Assembly: GCF_001854245.1 (NCBI RefSeq)
Contig: NZ_CP015381.1
Span: 3,817,001 to 3,881,000 of the forward strand
Source: Desulfococcus multivorans
Lineage (GTDB): Bacteria > Desulfobacterota > Desulfobacteria > Desulfobacterales > Desulfococcaceae
Length of the DNA stretch: 64,000 bases
Direction: 5' to 3'
A program made the translations under genes and the position numbers. Of this stretch, positions 43,853-53,707 are shown in pieces (the stretch's first letter is position 1; every line of letters starts with the position of its first letter). Under the pieces are notes generated by a model. The model worked only from the letters and a program-made list of their open reading frames with translations. It was not told the origin of the DNA and ran no database searches.

Positions 43853-44197
43853 TCAAAAAGGCGATGACAACTCCGCCACGATGAAGGGCGCGCATCGAAC
43901 GCCCATACCCCCCTTGCGAATCCAGATCCTGGCCATGGTGACGTTCTCGCCGTCGATGTTGACGATGGTGGGAACGTCCTCCACAAAGGCGATGTCCTCC
44001 GTCTTGAACTCGTAGTAAAACGTCGTCTGGTTGTAGGGATCCACGATAAGGAGGATCTTGTCTTTGTCCACGGGATGCTTGAAGGGTGAGCCGATGAACG
44101 GAATGCTGTTCCGCTTCAGCTCCGCCACGTTGCTCTTCTTTTTATACGGCTGAATCTCCAGCCGTTTGGCTTCCTGCAGAAAGGTCGTCATGGTCAT
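43853..44197 (-). CDS. Conserved-looking 114-residue protein of unknown function
   Basis: The protein reads TTFLQEAKRLEIQPYKKKSN, then VAELKRNSIPFIGSPFKHPVD, KDKILLIVDPYNQTTFYYEF and TEDIAFVEDVPTIVNIDGEN, ending VRCAPFIVAELSSPF. It has no signal peptide, membrane segment or cysteine cluster. The alternating strand pattern suggests a compact beta protein. AGGAGG precedes the start (44198-44212 on the minus strand). It follows the DJ-1 gene by 4 nt, so the two are coupled. I do not recognise the family and assign no function. Confidence 0.7.
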   Translation of the reverse strand: MTMTTFLQEAKRLEIQPYKKKSNVAELKRNSIPFIGSPFKHPVDKDKILLIVDPYNQTTFYYEFKTEDIAFVEDVPTIVNIDGENVTMARIWIRKGGMGVRCAPFIVAELSSPF

Positions 44198-45895: not shown

Positions 45896-46231
45896 TCATG
45901 GCTTCTTGAGACCGGGAAAGGAGATCACCCGCCCGTCCTTGCCGCCGGGATCGGGCGGCGCATCCTCTTCCGGCTCCGGGATCTCCGGCAGGGCGTCGTC
46001 GGGACACACCACCGGCGCCATTCGCATCCGGTTGCCGTTCATGGTGAACTCCGCGCCGTCGATGTATGCCGTCCGGAGAATCCAGGTCACCGGCTGAAGC
46101 GGGACCTGGAGCAGCAGCAGCTTGACGTGATACCAGTCCGGTTTGTGGTCCGCCTGAATGCTTTCGATCCGGGCGAATGTCATGGGCTGGTCTTCGAAAT
46201 AGATCAATACGACATCGTTTTCCTGGGCCAT
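45896..46231 (-). CDS. Small conserved-looking protein of unknown function
   Basis: This protein of 111 residues starts MAQENDVVLIYFEDQPMTFA and continues RIESIQADHKPDWYHVKLLL, QVPLQPVTWILRTAYIDGAE and TMNGNRMRMAPV, then a Pro-Glu-rich tail (PEIPEPEEDAPPDPGG). The pattern suggests a small beta-barrel or SH3-like domain. GGAG lies just before the ATG at 46231. Earlier in-frame ATGs exist (46240, 46294) but lack ribosome-binding sites. It lies 10 nt upstream of dusB, so they are probably co-transcribed. Family not recognised. Confidence 0.65.
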   Translation of the reverse strand: MAQENDVVLIYFEDQPMTFARIESIQADHKPDWYHVKLLLLQVPLQPVTWILRTAYIDGAEFTMNGNRMRMAPVVCPDDALPEIPEPEEDAPPDPGGKDGRVISFPGLKKP

Positions 46232-46328
46232 GGTCTCCATCCATTCTATTCTATAACACGCGGCCGCCTGGGACCGCGGGATTGGGGATTTCAAATCCGG
46301 AGGTTGAATCCATAACGCAATTTTCGAC

Positions 46329-46464: not shown

Positions 46465-46831
46465 GAATGTTGAATCCATAACATATAAGTATAGCATAAC
46501 ATGCCGAATATGTACAAAATGAAAATTGACGTTCTGCAAGGCCCGACAGCGCCCCGCGCCCCTGCCGGCCGCCGTCGGCTCCGGAATCGATCCTTTTGCG
46601 GGCCGCCCTGGAATTCGGCCCGGAAATTGAGATTGACAAGCCCGGAAATTTCTTGCAATAAAGCATAGGTATTGCAAGACGGCTTCAACCGCCGGACAAT
46701 ACAGCTCACCGCGATGCGCTTTCAACGACCATCGGGCGGCAAAAGCCGTCGACGCCGAACCATCGGCAGCCCCAGACCCATAAGCGGCTTTACACAACAC
46801 AAAACGGTTTCAAAGGAGAAGAGAGGACGTG

Positions 46832-47494
46832 ATGAAAAAATCAGCTCTAGGCGTCATGATCGTTATGGGGTGTATTTTGACGTTTGGCGGCAACGTATCG
46901 GCTCAGGGCCCCACCCTGGACCAGATCAAGCGCGTCGCCGAGAAAGGCCATCCCGTCGCTCAATACAAGATGGCCACCATCTATTTCAACGGCAACGGCG
47001 TCCCCAAAAACAATGCCGAGGCCCTCACCTGGTATCTCCGGGCCGCCGACCAGGGCTACACCATCGCCGAGTACAACCTCGGGGTGATCTACCAGAGCGG
47101 CAACGGGGCGCCCAAGGATTACGTCAAGGCCCTCGAATGGTACCGCAGGGCCGCCGACAAGGGGTATGCCGGCGCCCAGAACAAACTGGGGATGATGTAC
47201 GAAAACGGGGAAGGCGTCCCCAGGAATTACGCCGAGGCCATGAAGTGGTATCAAAAGGCCGCGGCCCAGGGGTATCCCGGCGCCCAGTATAACCTGGCCT
47301 TGATGCACTACAACGGCTGCGGCGTTCCCAAAGACTACGTCAACGCCTATGTCTGGTGCTCCCTGGCCGCCGCCAACGGCCACGTTGCGGGAAAACACTA
47401 TCTGACGCTCATCGAGTCGAAGATGAAGCCCGCCCAGATCAAACAAGCCCAGCTCGAGGCGGCCGGGCGACATCTGAAGGCCAAGAAATCCTGA
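46832..47494 (+). CDS. Exported Sel1-repeat protein
   Basis: This 220-residue protein has a signal peptide (MKKSALGVMIVMGCILTFGG, cleavage near SAQG). Four Sel1/TPR-like repeats of 36 residues follow, each of the form A-x-x-x-LG-x-x-Y-x-x-G-x-GVPK-x-Y-x-x-A-x-x-WY-x-x-AA-x-x-GY. The C-terminal part ends KQAQLEAAGRHLKAKKS. Sel1 repeats mediate protein-protein contacts. The ATG at 46832 follows AAGGAGAAGAG. It stands alone, with 760 bases of non-coding sequence after it. The binding partner is unknown. Confidence 0.88.
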   Translation: MKKSALGVMIVMGCILTFGGNVSAQGPTLDQIKRVAEKGHPVAQYKMATIYFNGNGVPKNNAEALTWYLRAADQGYTIAEYNLGVIYQSGNGAPKDYVKALEWYRRAADKGYAGAQNKLGMMYENGEGVPRNYAEAMKWYQKAAAQGYPGAQYNLALMHYNGCGVPKDYVNAYVWCSLAAANGHVAGKHYLTLIESKMKPAQIKQAQLEAAGRHLKAKKS

Positions 47495-48256
47495 ACCCAC
47501 CACCGCTTTCGTTGCCGCTCCCCCGACCTGACGGCGGGATCCGCCGGCCCCGGAGCCGCGTTCCGGGGAGCGCCGAAGGCCGGTGCCCGGTTTCAGGGAA
47601 TCAGTCCCGACCGTTGCGAACAGTGTCGTCCCGCCCCTCGCACGCCCGATGACGCCTTCAATTTATTCTTGATTATCGTATCATATCGCCGTAAAACGAA
47701 TTCACGGCACAGGCCGGCGAATCGTCGGACGAACGCCTGCGACAGGATCGGCGAGAAGCCGATCCGCCACTGCGGGCCGCCGTTTCCGTTACCGGGAGAT
47801 CCCCGGCAGGGGTGAACTGCGCTTGAAGTTTTGCGATGTTTATCATATGATGCATTTTTTGGAAAAAGCGCTTTATTCGAAGGGCGGCGGGATGTCCGGA
47901 GCCTGGAAATATCGCCGATCCCCGACGGGTCTTCCAGACCGGGGAGAGCGTTTTCTCCGAAAACAGATTCCATTTGTTTTAAGATCATCATTATAGGTTT
48001 GACAATTTTCCAAGAAAAAGGCATGTTCCCATATGATGCCATAATCGGATATTGAACAGATGAAGGATATCCTCCGCCAAGGGATATCCCGTCCGGACGG
48101 CGTCATTAGGGGATGGAAAGGGGCCTGTGGCGATTAGGTTTACACAGGCGGCGATTGTGATGAACCTTGCATCGACGGAGGGGGGTGATCGGAAGGCGAT
48201 TTTTTACGACATTCAAGGACGGAAGCAACTGATTATCAATGTTAAGGAGGAAAGAG
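47495..48256. other. Long intergenic region without a recognised gene
   Basis: About 760 bases between the Sel1-repeat gene and the OmpA-like gene. The first part is GC-rich with several short inverted repeats (for example around 47700-47820). The last 300 bases are more AT-rich and presumably contain the ompA promoter. Possible frames are short and lack family resemblance. No RNA gene was recognised. Confidence 0.6.
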
Positions 48257-49207
48257 ATGAAAAAAATTATTATTATGGTTATGTGTTTCACTATAGCGCT
48301 GGCCGCGAGTCTGCCCGTGTCAGCCATTGAATTGAGCCCCGACGCGGCCAACATCCCGTCGGTCTATGCCGAGGTCAGAGACGGAGAGATTGTTTACAGG
48401 AACAGCCCCACCGCCTATTCTCCGGATACCTTCGATGCGATCCTTACCGCCTACGGTCTCGAGCTGACGCCGGAAGCCGCCGCGAACGTTCCGGCAAGCT
48501 ACGCCAGGGTTGTCGACGGCACCATCGTCTTCGGCGAAAAGCCCATGGCCTACACCCCCGAAGACTATCACAGAATCTTCACGGCCTACGGCCTGGTGCT
48601 TTCCCCCGAGGATGCAACGCTGATCCAGGGACCGGTGAATTACGCCAAGACCGTCGACGGTGAAGTCGTTCTCGGCAAGACCTCCACCGCCTACAGCGCT
48701 ATGGGGCTGAGCCAGATCCTGGCCGCCTACCAGCTGCCCATGGCACCGGAGGAGGTCGTGGTGGTCGAAGAGGTCGAGTGTGTCGACGCTGACGGCGACG
48801 GCGTGTGCGACGATGTCGACGCCTGCCCCGGCACCCCCAAGGGCGTTCAGGTCGACGAAAGAGGCTGCTGGGTTCTGGACCAGAACTGTCTGTTCGACTT
48901 TGACAAGGCCGTGGTCAAGCCCGAATTCTATTCACTCCTGGACGGCATCGTGAAGGTCATGAACGACAATCCCACCCTGACCCTCGAACTCGAAGGCCAT
49001 GCCGACGCCATCGGTACCAACCGTTACAACCAGGGCCTTTCCGAGCGACGGGCCAACGCGGTCAAGGCCTACCTCGTTGAGAAGGGCATGATCGACCCGA
49101 CCCGCATTACCGCCATCGGATACGGCGAGGAAAAACCCATCGCCACCAATGAAACCGCGGACGGTCGCCGGCTGAACCGCCGGGTTGAACTGAAACCCAT
49201 CTGGTAA
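48257..49207 (+). CDS. OmpA-family outer-membrane protein with three-fold N-terminal repeat
   Basis: This 316-residue protein has a signal peptide (MKKIIIMVMCFTIALAASLPVSA). Three tandem repeats of about 45 residues follow (26-69, 70-114, 115-160) with pattern Y-A-x-V-x-DG-x-I/V-V ... AY-S/T-P ... I-L/F-T/A-AYGL-x-L-S/T-PE. After an acidic hinge comes a thrombospondin type-3 calcium motif (CVDADGDGVCDDVDACPGTP), and then an OmpA peptidoglycan-binding domain (LEGHADAIGTNRYNQGLSER ... RRLNRRVELKPIW). AAGGAGG precedes the ATG. The repeat domain is not a standard OmpA barrel. It probably anchors the outer layer to peptidoglycan. Confidence 0.88.
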   Translation: MKKIIIMVMCFTIALAASLPVSAIELSPDAANIPSVYAEVRDGEIVYRNSPTAYSPDTFDAILTAYGLELTPEAAANVPASYARVVDGTIVFGEKPMAYTPEDYHRIFTAYGLVLSPEDATLIQGPVNYAKTVDGEVVLGKTSTAYSAMGLSQILAAYQLPMAPEEVVVVEEVECVDADGDGVCDDVDACPGTPKGVQVDERGCWVLDQNCLFDFDKAVVKPEFYSLLDGIVKVMNDNPTLTLELEGHADAIGTNRYNQGLSERRANAVKAYLVEKGMIDPTRITAIGYGEEKPIATNETADGRRLNRRVELKPIW

Positions 49208-49234
49208 TTCGATCCCGATCCGATCGACTGAACG

Positions 49235-49282
49235 AAAAACCTCCCCTTGACGCCCACGGCGTTGGGGGGAGGTTTTGTTTTA
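49235..49282 (+). terminator. Rho-independent terminator after the OmpA-like gene
   Basis: AAAACCTCCCC pairs with GGGGGGAGGTTTT and is followed by GTTTTAAA. It is 30 nt after the stop codon. It could also act for the leftward gene ending at 49300. Confidence 0.85.
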
Positions 49283-49299
49283 AACCCTGATCACCCTCC

Positions 49300-50025
49300 T
49301 CACCTATTCCCCGGGCCGAAAGCTCCAAATCGTAACCGAACCTCTCTGTAATTGTCGACGATATAGGCCAGCAGCGCCCGGATGAACACGATTGCACCCG
49401 CCATCTCGAGACTCTCCTCGACGGTGGCCAGCATGCTGTAGGTCAAATTGTACATCCCGTTCACGTCGGCGTATCGGCCGGTGATCAATTCGACACCGAC
49501 GGCCCCACCGATGTAGAGGGTCCCCGCCAGCAAAAAATTGCGCCGCGTTTTCGCCGGAAGATGCAACAGGAACTTCGAAAAGTACAAGCCGAGAACGAGG
49601 ACAAGTGCAATGCCGGGAATGACCCAGGGAAAATAGAAAATGCCGAGATTTTCCACGCCCAGCAGCCGGTACATCGGTTTCATCAGTCTCTCATGAAATT
49701 GCCATCCCTCATCAGCCGCCATGCACAGGAACCCCAATGAAAGGAGCGCCCAGTCCGACACGGCAGAACCGGCTCGCCGCCTTTCAACCAGGGTGATTGC
49801 CAAAAGCAGCAGTGATGCGAACAGCAACAGCAGCGTGGAGAAAATGGTTGGAAAATTCCTCTCGGCGTCGATGTAAAAGAGCTGGATGAGCGTGTCAATA
49901 TGGTCAGGCCCGGTCAGGTACAACGACAACTGGCCGACGATGCTGGCCAGAACCAGGAAAAAGGCCATTGCCCCAAGTAGACGGACAATACCAGACGGAT
50001 TGAGCGTGATTTGATTGAAGGCCAT
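49300..50025 (-). CDS. Multi-pass membrane protein of unknown function
   Basis: This protein of about 241 residues has six or so hydrophobic segments, among them LLGAMAFFLVLASIVGQLSL, FSTLLLLFASLLLLAITLVE, WALLSLGFLCMAADEGWQF, VIPGIALVLVLGLYFSKFLL and NFLLAGTLYIGGAVGVELIT. The acidic motif AADEGWQFHERLM between helices 3 and 4 and the late TVEESLEMAGAIVFI are distinctive. The family is not recognised. An upstream in-frame ATG at 50163 would add residues encoded by the heptamer repeat ([12 protein letters not shown]), so the ATG at 50025 is preferred despite a weak ribosome-binding site. Confidence 0.72.
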   Translation of the reverse strand: MAFNQITLNPSGIVRLLGAMAFFLVLASIVGQLSLYLTGPDHIDTLIQLFYIDAERNFPTIFSTLLLLFASLLLLAITLVERRRAGSAVSDWALLSLGFLCMAADEGWQFHERLMKPMYRLLGVENLGIFYFPWVIPGIALVLVLGLYFSKFLLHLPAKTRRNFLLAGTLYIGGAVGVELITGRYADVNGMYNLTYSMLATVEESLEMAGAIVFIRALLAYIVDNYREVRLRFGAFGPGNR

Positions 50026-50194: not shown

Positions 50195-50457
50195 AGAAGC
50201 CCCCTTAACCCCTTAATCACATAATCACATAATCACATAATCACATAATCACATAATCACTTAATCACTTAATCACTTAATCACTTAAAACCTTAAAACC
50301 TTAAAACCTTAAAACCTTAAAACCTTAAAACCTTAAAACCTTAAAACCTTAAAACTCTGAAACTCTGAAACTCTGAAACTCTGAAACTCTGAAACTCTAA
50401 AACTCTAAAACCCTAAAACCCTAAAACCCTAAAACCCTAAAACTCTAAAACTCTATC
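50195..50457. repeat. Largest octamer tandem-repeat tract (about 32 units)
   Basis: Successive blocks of one octamer type each: AATCACAT, AATCACTT, AAAACCTT (about 9 copies), GAAACTCT (about 5), AAAACTCT and AAAACCCT. Read leftward, the tract starts at the stop codon of the moeA-PBP gene, whose TAG is part of the first unit. The stepwise change from one octamer type to the next suggests growth by local unit duplication. Confidence 0.93.
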
Positions 50458-52379
50458 CCCTTCCCCGTCATCCGGGTGCTGTAGCCCCCCAACGCCTTGA
50501 CCCGGCGCTTGAATTCCGCCGACACGATGGTCTCCAGCAGGACCTTCATGGGGGGCCAGTCGAGGTAGATCTCGGGGATGATCAGGTCGTACTGCTCGGT
50601 CACCACCGGGATGAAATCGAGATGGAGGGCTTTGGCGGCGGCATAGATGCCCAGGCCGACGTCGGCGGCCCCGCTCAGGACCGCCGCGGCAACGGTCATG
50701 TGGGTGAACTCCTCGGTGTCGTACCCCGGGATCCCGGCCGGGTCGATCCCCAGTTGTCCCAGGCGATAGTCGAGAAGGATGCGGGTTCCCGACCCGCCCT
50801 GCCGGTTGATGAACCGGACATCCCCCCGCGCCAGATCGGCGATCTCCCGGATGCCTTTGGGGTTGCCCCGGGCCACCATCAGCCCCTGATCCCGGAGAAC
50901 CAGGTTGACGATCCGCACCGGTGTATCCGGCAGAAACCGCTTGACATAGGAGACATTGTAGGAGCCGTCCCCGGTGTCCAGGAGGTGGGACCCCGCCAGG
51001 TGGCAGACGCCGCGCTTGAGGGCCAGGAGCCCGCCCGTGCTGCCCACATGGGTGGAGGAGAGGGTGACGGCGCCGTCATGACCGGCCCGGAGCTGATCGG
51101 CCAGCACGTCGAGGGTGTTGTCGTGGCTGCCCACGACCACGAGGGTGTTTTCCACGGCGGAAAGGGGTCTCAGCAGCTCGGCCGTCACCCGCTCGTGTTC
51201 CCGGATCCCTTCCACGGCATTGGGGATGCGGATGATGCCGTCGGCGTCGGTGATGGTGGTGATGCTCCCGGCGCCCCGGGGCAAAGCCGTGGCCACGATC
51301 CGGTCCCCCACCTTGCCCAGCTTGACCCGTACGAACTCCTCGACGCCGAGTTTCGAGGGAATCTTGCGGGTCGTCTCCACCGTCACCCTGGGCCTTTGGA
51401 GCTCGGGCACTCCCAGCATGCGGCAGATCAGGGGCCCCACGAACTGCTCGAAGGCGACGATCATGGAGACCGGATAACCGGGCATTCCGATCACCGGGGT
51501 CCCCTTGACCCGGCCGACGAGGATCGGCTTTCCCGGCATGATCGTCACACCGTGGATGAGCACCTCGCCCTGGGCGTCGATCACCGTCCGGGTGAAGTCC
51601 TCGGAGCCCGCGGAGGAGCCCCCCACGGTGAGGACGATATCGGCCCCTTCGTCGACGGCGTCGGAGACCGCCCGGGAGATGGCCGCGACGTCGTCTTTCA
51701 AAGGTTCCCGCCGGGACGGCGCACCGCCCCATTCCCGGATGAGACCCCAAAGCACGAAGCTGTTGGACTCCAGGACCTGTCCGGGCCGGACCGCTTCGAT
51801 GGGCACGGTCCGCCAGTCCGTCAGCTCCGACCCGGTGGGCAGGATGGTGACGGCGGGCTTCTTCCGGACGGGCACCTGGAAGATACCACCGCCGATCAGT
51901 GCTCCGACGCAGTAAGGGGTGATCCTGTGCCCCCTGGGAAAGAGCAGCTCGGTGGCGACGATGTCCTCGCCCATCTTGCGGACGTACTGCCATGGAAAGG
52001 CCGGTGCCTCGATGGTGAGGGTCCGGTCGTCCACGGGGTTCAAATTCTCGATCATGATGACGGCGTCGGTCCCCTCGGGAAGCGGATTTCCGGTATTGAC
52101 CCAGAAGGCGTCGGTGCCGATGGTGAGGGTCCTGGGCCGGGTTTCAGCCGCACCGAAGGTGTCGGCCGCCGCCACGGCGATCCCGTCCATGGCCGCCGCG
52201 TGGAAATTGGGGGAGGAGACCTTGGCGAAGACGGGTCCGGCGATCACGCGGCCGACGGCCGCATCGGGCGAAACGTGTTCCGTCGCCATGACGCCGAAAC
52301 CGGAGAAGGCCTCGAAGAGCATTCGGCGGGCCTCGTCCAGGGTCCGCTTTTTCAGATAGACATTGCGATTGGCGTTCAT
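50445..52379 (-). CDS. MoeA-like molybdopterin protein fused to a PBP-like (LysR-substrate) domain
   Basis: The protein has about 644 residues. The first 410 are a MoeA fold (VSSPNFHAAAMDGIAVAA, TGNPLPEGTDAVIMIEN, TILPTGSELTD, LTVGGSSAGSEDFTRTVI, PGKPILVGRVKGTPVIGMPG). The last 230 form a periplasmic-binding-protein-like domain (LVVVGSHDNTLDVLADQLRA, STHVGSTGGLLALKRG, FINRQGGSGTRILLDYRL, AAVLSGAADVGLGIYAAA). Such fusions may couple cofactor synthesis to sensing of molybdate or tungstate. GGGAG lies 5 nt before the ATG at 52379. It is the last gene of the operon, and the stop codon lies in the octamer repeat. Confidence 0.9.
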   Translation of the reverse strand: MNANRNVYLKKRTLDEARRMLFEAFSGFGVMATEHVSPDAAVGRVIAGPVFAKVSSPNFHAAAMDGIAVAAADTFGAAETRPRTLTIGTDAFWVNTGNPLPEGTDAVIMIENLNPVDDRTLTIEAPAFPWQYVRKMGEDIVATELLFPRGHRITPYCVGALIGGGIFQVPVRKKPAVTILPTGSELTDWRTVPIEAVRPGQVLESNSFVLWGLIREWGGAPSRREPLKDDVAAISRAVSDAVDEGADIVLTVGGSSAGSEDFTRTVIDAQGEVLIHGVTIMPGKPILVGRVKGTPVIGMPGYPVSMIVAFEQFVGPLICRMLGVPELQRPRVTVETTRKIPSKLGVEEFVRVKLGKVGDRIVATALPRGAGSITTITDADGIIRIPNAVEGIREHERVTAELLRPLSAVENTLVVVGSHDNTLDVLADQLRAGHDGAVTLSSTHVGSTGGLLALKRGVCHLAGSHLLDTGDGSYNVSYVKRFLPDTPVRIVNLVLRDQGLMVARGNPKGIREIADLARGDVRFINRQGGSGTRILLDYRLGQLGIDPAGIPGYDTEEFTHMTVAAAVLSGAADVGLGIYAAAKALHLDFIPVVTEQYDLIIPEIYLDWPPMKVLLETIVSAEFKRRVKALGGYSTRMTGKGIEF

Positions 52380-52435
52380 GAGATCTCCCGAAGATGTTTT
52401 CCGGCGGGCTTCGCCGGTGTTTTTCCCCATGCCGG

Positions 52436-53668
52436 TCAGAGGGGCGTCACCTCAACCGGCGCATCCTTTTCCAGGCCTTCGACATCGCGGTCGATCCGCA
52501 CGAGGCCGTCGGCTTTCACCATGGTGTGGATCAGGCCGGACTTCCCCAGCACCGGCGAAGCCCGCCATTCCCCCTGGTCCCGCGAAAGGCGGACCCGGAC
52601 ATAGTCGACCCGACCCTGGGCCGACGGGAGATTCCGGGTGATCCGGGCGGGAATGGTCCAGATCGTTTCCGATGCCTCCGAAAGTCCTGAGAGGTGGTGG
52701 ATGAAGGGTCGGACGATCACCGTGAAGACCACCATGGCCGACGTGACGTGCCCCGGAAGCCCCCAGAAGGGCTTGCCGTCCACCCGGGCCAGGATGGTGG
52801 GCTTGCCCGGACTGATGGAGACGCCGTGGACCAGCACCTCGGATCGGGGCAGGGATGCGATGGTCTCGATGGTGAAATCCCGGGTCCCCACGGAGCTCCC
52901 GCCCGAAACCAGGACCATGTCCGATTCGGCCGAAGCCTGCCGACAGGTCGCCAGGAGGGCTTCGGGACGGTCCGGGACGATGCCGTAGATCTTCGGGATC
53001 CCACCGGCCCGCCGGACCCACCCGGCCAGGGAGTAGGTGTTGATGTCCCGGATCCGCCCCTGTGAGGGGACCTGGTGGATGGGAACGATCTCGTCACCGG
53101 TGGAGACGATGCCGACCACGGGCCGCCGGAAGACCCGGACCGTCTCCCGCCCCAGAGCCGAGAGCACCCCCATCTCCTGGGGCCGGATCCTTCGGCCGCG
53201 GTCCAGGACCGTCTCCCCGATCCGGAAGTCCTCACCCGCCTCCACGACGTTCTCCCCCGGGGCGACACTCTTGTAGACCTCGATCAGGGTATCGTCCAGA
53301 CTCTCGGTCCGCTCGATCATGACGACGGCGTCGGCCCCCTCGGGAAGCATGCCCCCCGTCGAAATCCGGGACGCCTCCCCCGGGCCCACGGCAAACCCCG
53401 GCACCTCACCCATGCGGATGGTGCCCCTGACGGTGAGGCAGGCGGGCGCGCCGTCGGAGGCCCCGAAGGTGGCCCCGGCCCGCACCGCGTATCCGTCCAT
53501 GGTGGCCCGCCGGAAATCGGGCAGGTCGATATCCGACACGATCGCCTCGGCCAGAATCCGGTCGAGGGTCTCGAGGACCGGCACCGTCTCCTCGCCCGCC
53601 GTCGGAAACCCGGCCCTGAGCGCCGTCACCGCTTCGATGTCCATGACCTTGAAAAAATCCTTCATCAT
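52436..53668 (-). CDS. moeA: Molybdopterin molybdenumtransferase (MoeA)
   Basis: This protein of 410 residues has the MoeA domains in order: DIDLPDFRRATMDGYAVRAG, ISTGGMLPEGADAVVMIERT, VGIVSTGDEIVPI, LVSGGSSVGTRDFTIETI, SISPGKPTILARVDGKPFWG-type sequence and the C-terminal beta domain. It inserts molybdenum (or tungsten) into adenylylated molybdopterin. The upstream TTG at 53692 is less likely than the ATG pair at 53668/53665. A second MoeA-like gene lies 56 nt downstream. The pair may divide Mo and W work, which would serve the FdhA in this window; that is inference. Confidence 0.93.
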   Translation of the reverse strand: MMKDFFKVMDIEAVTALRAGFPTAGEETVPVLETLDRILAEAIVSDIDLPDFRRATMDGYAVRAGATFGASDGAPACLTVRGTIRMGEVPGFAVGPGEASRISTGGMLPEGADAVVMIERTESLDDTLIEVYKSVAPGENVVEAGEDFRIGETVLDRGRRIRPQEMGVLSALGRETVRVFRRPVVGIVSTGDEIVPIHQVPSQGRIRDINTYSLAGWVRRAGGIPKIYGIVPDRPEALLATCRQASAESDMVLVSGGSSVGTRDFTIETIASLPRSEVLVHGVSISPGKPTILARVDGKPFWGLPGHVTSAMVVFTVIVRPFIHHLSGLSEASETIWTIPARITRNLPSAQGRVDYVRVRLSRDQGEWRASPVLGKSGLIHTMVKADGLVRIDRDVEGLEKDAPVEVTPL

Positions 53669-53707
53669 CCCTCTCGTGCCGCATTGGCCCAACCCGGCCG
53701 CGGCGCC

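Follow-up and report, generated by a model that had tools for sequence, protein, structure and literature searches.

The repeat gene of Desulfococcus multivorans

The window analyzed in this study is a stretch of 64,000 nucleotides from the D. multivorans contig NZ_CP015381.1 (positions 3,817,001 to 3,881,000 of the forward strand). As shown in Table 1, it contains a gene for a protein whose N-terminal head, composed of three repeat units, is followed by a linker, a TSP3-like motif, and a C-terminal OmpA domain. The gene is hereafter called the repeat gene. The terminator was found by eye and does not appear in the output of the terminator scan, which permits only shorter loops. In the region 47400-49500, no RNA element reached its Rfam gathering score. 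Downstream, on the minus strand, positions 50445-52430 encode a long protein resembling, by eye, MoeA with an additional C-terminal substrate-binding-like domain; I take this gene and the adjoining 52436-53692 to be MoeA-like.

Table 1. Features of the repeat gene locus, in positions of the window
Feature	Position	Strand	Basis or remark
Sel1-repeat protein (PF08238)	46829-47494	+	Upstream of the repeat gene; also in the same-genus genome G001
Shine-Dalgarno sequence AAGGAGG, 6 bases 5′ of the ATG	48244-48250	+	Sequence reading
Repeat gene, 316 amino acids: three-unit head, TSP3-like motif, OmpA domain; ATG at 48257, ORF end at 49207	48257-49207	+	ORF, family search
Signal peptide without a lipobox; predicted cleavage at VSA|IE	48257-48325	+	Cleavage site placed by eye
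Repeat unit 1, residues 24-67	48326-48457	+	
Repeat unit 2, residues 68-112	48458-48592	+	
Repeat unit 3, residues 113-160	48593-48736	+	
Short acidic/Val linker	48737-48778	+	Low model confidence
Cys-bounded TSP3-like motif DADGDGVCDDVDACP	48779-48868	+	Pfam TSP_3, sub-threshold
OmpA C-terminal peptidoglycan-binding domain (PF00691), residues 212-308	48890-49180	+	Pfam
Probable intrinsic terminator, 11-bp stem AAAACCTCCCC/GGGGAGGTTTT, then TGTTT	49236-49281	+	By eye

The original prediction had placed a three-fold repeat of about 45 residues before an OmpA domain, and this repeat is real. The units are 44, 45, and 48 residues in length, and the BLOSUM62 local scores of the pairs 1-2, 2-3, and 1-3 (118, 78, and 72) lie well over the maxima of 2000 shuffles per pair (44, 41, and 40, respectively). 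The predicted span, 48257-48740, does include the repeats, but its beginning is the signal peptide and the first unit starts 69 bases later. The motif Y-A-x-V-x-D-G-x-I-V followed by A-Y-x-P and A-Y-G-L is present as described, with A-Y-S-A and A-Y-Q-L in unit 3. Eight proteins have 24 units, of which 21 entered a profile (A6) that gave the consensus L-x-P-x-A ... P-x-x-Y-A-K-V-K-D-G-x-I-V-F-G-K-x-P-T-A-Y-S-P-D-x-x-x-x-I-L-x-A-Y-G. As for the TSP3 calcium motif predicted after the repeats, the pattern D-x-D-x-D-G-x-x-D is plain in residues 177-195, but the stretch reaches only 17.6 of the 25 bits that Pfam requires (PF02412). Among the homologues, L037 passes this cut-off with 47.7 bits over three stretches, and the linker at the equivalent place is rich in proline in many of them.

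Distribution, copy number, and history of the repeat units

In the source genome, the repeat gene is the sole match to the head (E<=10) or to the unit (E<=0.05), and is one of three OmpA-domain matches at E<=0.001. All six genomes of the Desulfococcaceae sample, the source included, have the gene. In the class sample, 20 of 291 genomes have a match at E<=0.01, leaving 19 after removal of G068, whose match is a TRAP-type solute-binding protein. In the order sample, 21 of 389 have a match at E<=0.001, again leaving 19 after removal of the solute-binding proteins of G708 and G227; the frames of all three rejected matches were read by eye. The source genome is the only match among 395 genomes of the phylum sample. 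A mobile origin of the gene was rejected, as no match was found in plasmids, phages, or viral contigs. One genome, G071, has two repeat genes (L040 and L042) on different contigs.

The unit profile was searched against 22 genomes, namely the 19 gene holders and three others (G170, G289, and G699). All of the 19 intact genes, from 18 genomes including the two of G071, have three unit matches, and the gene of G005, interrupted by a contig end, has one. No match outside the repeat gene was found at E<=0.05, nor any in the three other genomes. The units have diverged; unit 2 of the window protein is 38-62% identical to 20 other units. In four proteins of three genomes, one hairpin of the predicted fold is lost and the helix kept (unit 1 in G002 and G004, unit 2 in both G071 genes).

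This divergence and the loss of hairpins would be expected if the three units were a passive spacer and the only function lay in the OmpA anchor. However, the number of units is constant in the intact genes, in which the count of TSP3-type motifs ranges from 0 to 3. Likewise, dN/dS against the same-genus orthologue, estimated by the Nei-Gojobori method from this one pair, is 0.23 for the repeats and 0.23 for the OmpA domain (dS 0.85 for the head and 0.90 for the OmpA domain) versus 0.35 for the linker. The head is also predicted to fold compactly and with confidence. Thus, a mere spacer is considered rather unlikely.

Do the three copies share one history? A tree of 48 units from 16 proteins was constructed from a 49-column alignment with a midpoint root and without support values. 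The 16 proteins (alignment A1) represent 16 of the 20 known genes; L017, L028, L031, and the cut L010 were left out. All of the 16 third copies form one group, while the first and second copies separate only partly, the second copies of L016, L018, L020, L026, and L027 lying among first copies. The mean distance is 0.508 between equal copies of different proteins, 0.529 between copies inside one protein, and 0.567 between unlike copies of different proteins. Since the third copies group together, the tree clearly suggests that the third copy is older than the spread of the repeat-protein family. Between copies 1 and 2, later exchange may have occurred.

The OmpA anchor and its other heads

The OmpA domain scores 84 bits against a cut-off of 27.2, and the best solved relative of residues 202-316 is the C-terminal domain of Pseudomonas aeruginosa OprF (PDB 5u1h; E 3e-27 by sequence and 1.2e-13 by fold). 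The C-terminal domain of OmpA binds peptidoglycan via conserved Asp and Arg residues. The window protein has kept the GHxD Asp and the SERR Arg, which I take from Acinetobacter baumannii OmpA to be the diaminopimelate ligands. To judge by its signal peptide, the repeat protein is exported, and it is probably tethered to peptidoglycan. Most family members have, by eye, a plain signal peptide without a lipobox, while L015 and L017 have the lipobox LASC; the family thus seems, from its leader sequences, to use two export modes. The Asp of GHTD is replaced by Cys (GHTC) in nine of 19 homologues (L015, L017, L019, L020, L021, L024, L025, L026, and L031). The VWA1 proteins read have Cys there too, as do two of three VWA2 proteins (see below). 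Thioredoxin genes adjoin five of the nine Cys-type genes and also four Asp-type genes (L016, L018, L027, and L028), and thus there is no simple link between GHTC and this neighbor.

Porins of the OprF/OmpA type have an 8-stranded membrane β-barrel at the N-terminus, and the window protein has its small three-unit domain in that place. No such barrel was found in its model, which has three hairpins of 4-residue strands plus helices, and no barrel family was found among its Pfam matches. The original prediction that the repeats replace the normal OmpA barrel therefore holds for the architecture, but some relatives carry a VWA head there rather than a barrel. Lipoproteins of the Pal/YiaD type have the OmpA domain in common with the repeat proteins, most of which differ, by eye, in lacking a lipobox. 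Pal is not known to have a separate folded head.

Another system with a comparable C-terminal half is TraB of Myxococcus. Its model NF033763 aligns with the TSP3-like and OmpA parts of the window protein (residues 163-312, E 3.5e-25), and the lipobox of L015 and L017 would also suit an outer-membrane exchange or adhesion system in which the head is displayed on the cell surface. However, the 88 bits obtained fall well short of the 700 that the family requires, a barrel is not predicted, and an OmpA domain bound to peptidoglycan would keep that end of the protein in the periplasm. A TraB-like system is therefore quite unlikely.

In 13 of 19 genomes, a gene for a VWA-like OmpA protein is found on the strand of the repeat gene, at a midpoint-to-midpoint distance of at most about 4 kb (G002, G003, G004, where it is downstream, G005, G040, G074, G160, G163, G171, G205, G237, G241, and G272). 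Nine genomes have thioredoxin and BamD genes downstream (G040, G074, G160, G163, G171, G205, G237, G241, and G272), and six have an AsmA gene upstream (G003, G004, G005, G074, G237, and G272). Six genomes have no VWA-like gene nearby in the sequence covered; G000 and G001 have a Sel1-repeat gene upstream of the repeat gene, G072 and G132 have eno-pyrG upstream, both G071 loci end early at contig ends, and G091 is the sixth. The upstream flanking genes of the window, 43853-44197 and 45896-46294, are shared with G002 and G003, and the Sel1 gene of the window has the position of the VWA-like gene in these two genomes. The place is filled by a VWA-like OmpA gene in G002 and by VWA-like and AsmA genes in G003.

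VWA-like proteins were found in 193 of the 389 genomes of the order sample at E<=1e-6. A close orthologue (E<1e-70) is present in 18 genomes, 13 of which have the repeat gene, as against six of the other 371, shared ancestry being uncorrected in these counts. The D. multivorans genome has no match at E<=1e-6. Since the VWA-like protein is absent there and a Sel1 gene is upstream instead, the VWA-like protein is no obligate partner of the repeat protein.

The three genomes that were searched without carrying a repeat unit (G170, G289, and G699) have the gene order VWA1-VWA2-Trx-TrxB-BamD. Their VWA2 occupies the position of the repeat protein in G171 and G241, which belong to the same family. 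VWA-TSP3-OmpA proteins of the same order (such as L080:5474-6877 and L084:5890-7602) resemble the repeat proteins in gene-row position and spacer but differ in having a VWA domain as the head. The PF00092 cut-off of 23.8 bits is exceeded by three VWA2-type proteins (L080, L084, and L066), and a fourth, L081, scores 17.8. For VWA1, three proteins were scanned; L064 matches only VWA_2, below its threshold, and no VWA match was obtained for L035 or L041. VWA1 is called VWA because of its similarity to VWA2 across the VWA region (38% for L080). Since L081:6635-8305 and L084:5890-7602 have, by eye, several TSP3-like motifs between VWA and OmpA, the length of the spacer on the related anchor varies widely.

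The relationship of the anchors was assessed with a tree of 37 rows. The VWA1 proteins of G699, G002, and G272 are not among them, nor are the second VWA genes of G125 and G201. One branch (support 100/99) divides all 14 VWA1 anchors from the anchors of 19 repeat proteins, three VWA2 proteins, and one G004 VWA protein. In identity, the VWA2 anchors come within 63-72% of their nearest counterparts among the repeat proteins. Branching inside the repeat/VWA2 side is not resolved, and therefore the tree does not tell which head replaced the other. In G004, the repeat protein and a VWA2-type protein are adjacent. Hence the exchange of heads may be explained equally well, as far as the sequences go, by duplication with differential loss or by a direct swap. 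The leaders of the G205 and G163 repeat proteins resemble those of VWA2 (SCAHQ-GQ/SCAAHQKGQ), and VWA1 leaders are likewise similar in their hydrophobic part.

Family searches and predicted fold of the head

The repeats had been described in the original prediction as an unrecognised domain, a description to be withdrawn if they matched a named family. Such a match was sought, and the window head reached no cut-off in Pfam or in NCBIfam, the latter searched with the window protein only. In 10 heads scanned singly, every Pfam match in the head was below its cut-off. Among 16 family members, for which 25 families were listed, the best Pfam E-value was 0.001. Weak matches to Trp-ring, CheC, STN, and other families were rejected as lying below the cut-offs where bits are given. 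An OXA beta-lactamase match in NCBIfam (E 0.0013, 17.9 of 625 bits, two stretches in residues 8-53) was also rejected, falling mostly in the signal-peptide region. The window protein matched neither VWA (PF00092, at E<=10) nor the trimeric autotransporter Trp-ring (PF15401).

Against PDB sequences, the window head gave a best E of 1.1, with none at E<=0.001, and the head profile gave a best E of 0.0023. The latter and a second match (E 0.0025) are to eIF2B and were treated as chance, since the score sums two weak pieces (singly 1.1 and 46, or 1.1 and 51). The search with a 45-residue unit profile, a check named in the original prediction, gave a best E of 0.65. In the literature, as judged by titles and the beginnings of abstracts, nothing on a three-unit head domain was found, and the main text of the D. 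multivorans genome paper (PMC5109826) has neither 'OmpA' nor 'outer membrane'.

The structure prediction that had likewise been proposed gave a confident fold without a significant match in the PDB. The AlphaFold2 model of the head (residues 24-167) has a mean pLDDT of 91.4 and a pTM of 0.86. It rests on 10 sequences; alignments A4 and A5 have the same number, the window protein and nine named loci. In each unit, a hairpin with two strands of 4 residues is predicted together with a helix of 10 residues, and units 2 and 3 open with a 4-residue helix. A full-length model (pLDDT 76.5, pTM 0.47) reproduced these elements, with pLDDT below 50 at residues 1-21 (the signal peptide), 163-174, 180-183, and 186-191. 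As a positive control, the full-length model retrieved the OprF C-terminal domain with the fold E-value given above, among 124 matches at E<=0.001. For the head model, the best Foldseek match in the PDB had an E of 0.7 (probability 0.12, TM 0.15), VIA-align gave no Z>=2 among 371 chains, and the best E against viral models was 0.47. The head thus appears to be a compact three-unit domain for which these searches found no catalogued family or solved relative, and perhaps its predicted fold is undescribed.

Could the units be LysM-like glycan-binding modules in tandem, with which the protein would have a second site for binding the wall? By eye, D-T-L-x-x-I-x-x-x-Y-G is found at LysM spacing, and the order strand-helix-helix-strand across the unit border resembles that of LysM. 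Since Foldseek may miss folds of 45 residues, the fold search alone is insufficient against this idea. However, hhalign gave LysM (PF01476) a probability of 6.5% over 14 columns of the 43-residue domain, and 0.5% in the other register. The comparison covered eight of the nine LysM matches in the source genome, a partial one (L079) being left out. LysM was neither among the 25 families listed for the 16 members nor found in the 10 single scans, and the T-A-Y-S-P and D-G turn motifs have, by eye, no LysM counterpart. A LysM origin is accordingly very improbable. A divergent EF-hand or a trimeric-adhesin Trp-ring motif has hardly any chance of being the answer, for the head profile's weak sorcin matches (E 0.1 to 0.16) span 41 columns lacking, by eye, the EF-hand calcium ligands, the TAA-Trp-ring motif, matched in four of 16 members (best E 0.001), scores 17.0, 20.0 (over 23 residues), and 19.9 of 25.8 bits in the single scans, over 21-23 residues around the hairpin, and the head model has no significant fold match.

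Discussion

In summary, the anchor is ordinary, and the head is a new domain in an OmpA-anchored envelope protein. According to PMC12204202, the VWA domain is best known for adhesion and protein-protein interactions. Since the three-unit head takes the same place, it plausibly binds a partner too, by analogy. I estimate at about even odds (roughly 0.5) that a peptidoglycan-tethered protein uses the new domain family as an alternative head for binding.

How might such a protein work? The C-terminal domain of the OprF/Pal type would hold peptidoglycan, and the TSP3-like or proline-rich spacer would keep the head away from it and give reach. The three-unit head may then bind a ligand or a protein on the periplasmic side of the outer membrane, doing a job equivalent to that of the VWA head. 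In this way, the protein would bridge the wall to a partner in the outer membrane. Candidate partners are the neighboring VWA-like lipoprotein and the envelope machinery suggested by the BamD and AsmA neighbors. A more far-reaching version is offered tentatively, as a possibility that I would not yet bet on: the head would be a new fold of fixed copy number, confined to Desulfobacterales and interchangeable as a binding head with VWA on one peptidoglycan-anchored chassis, and the locus would be tied to outer-membrane assembly.

An unnamed domain family, perhaps with an undescribed fold, thus joins the wall-anchored proteins, a class that is large and has been studied extensively. That relatives carry a VWA head on an anchor closely related to this one makes the job of the head testable, since a common partner or ligand is expected. 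Since the sulfate reducer D. multivorans is in culture and its genome has been sequenced, the protein can be made and studied.
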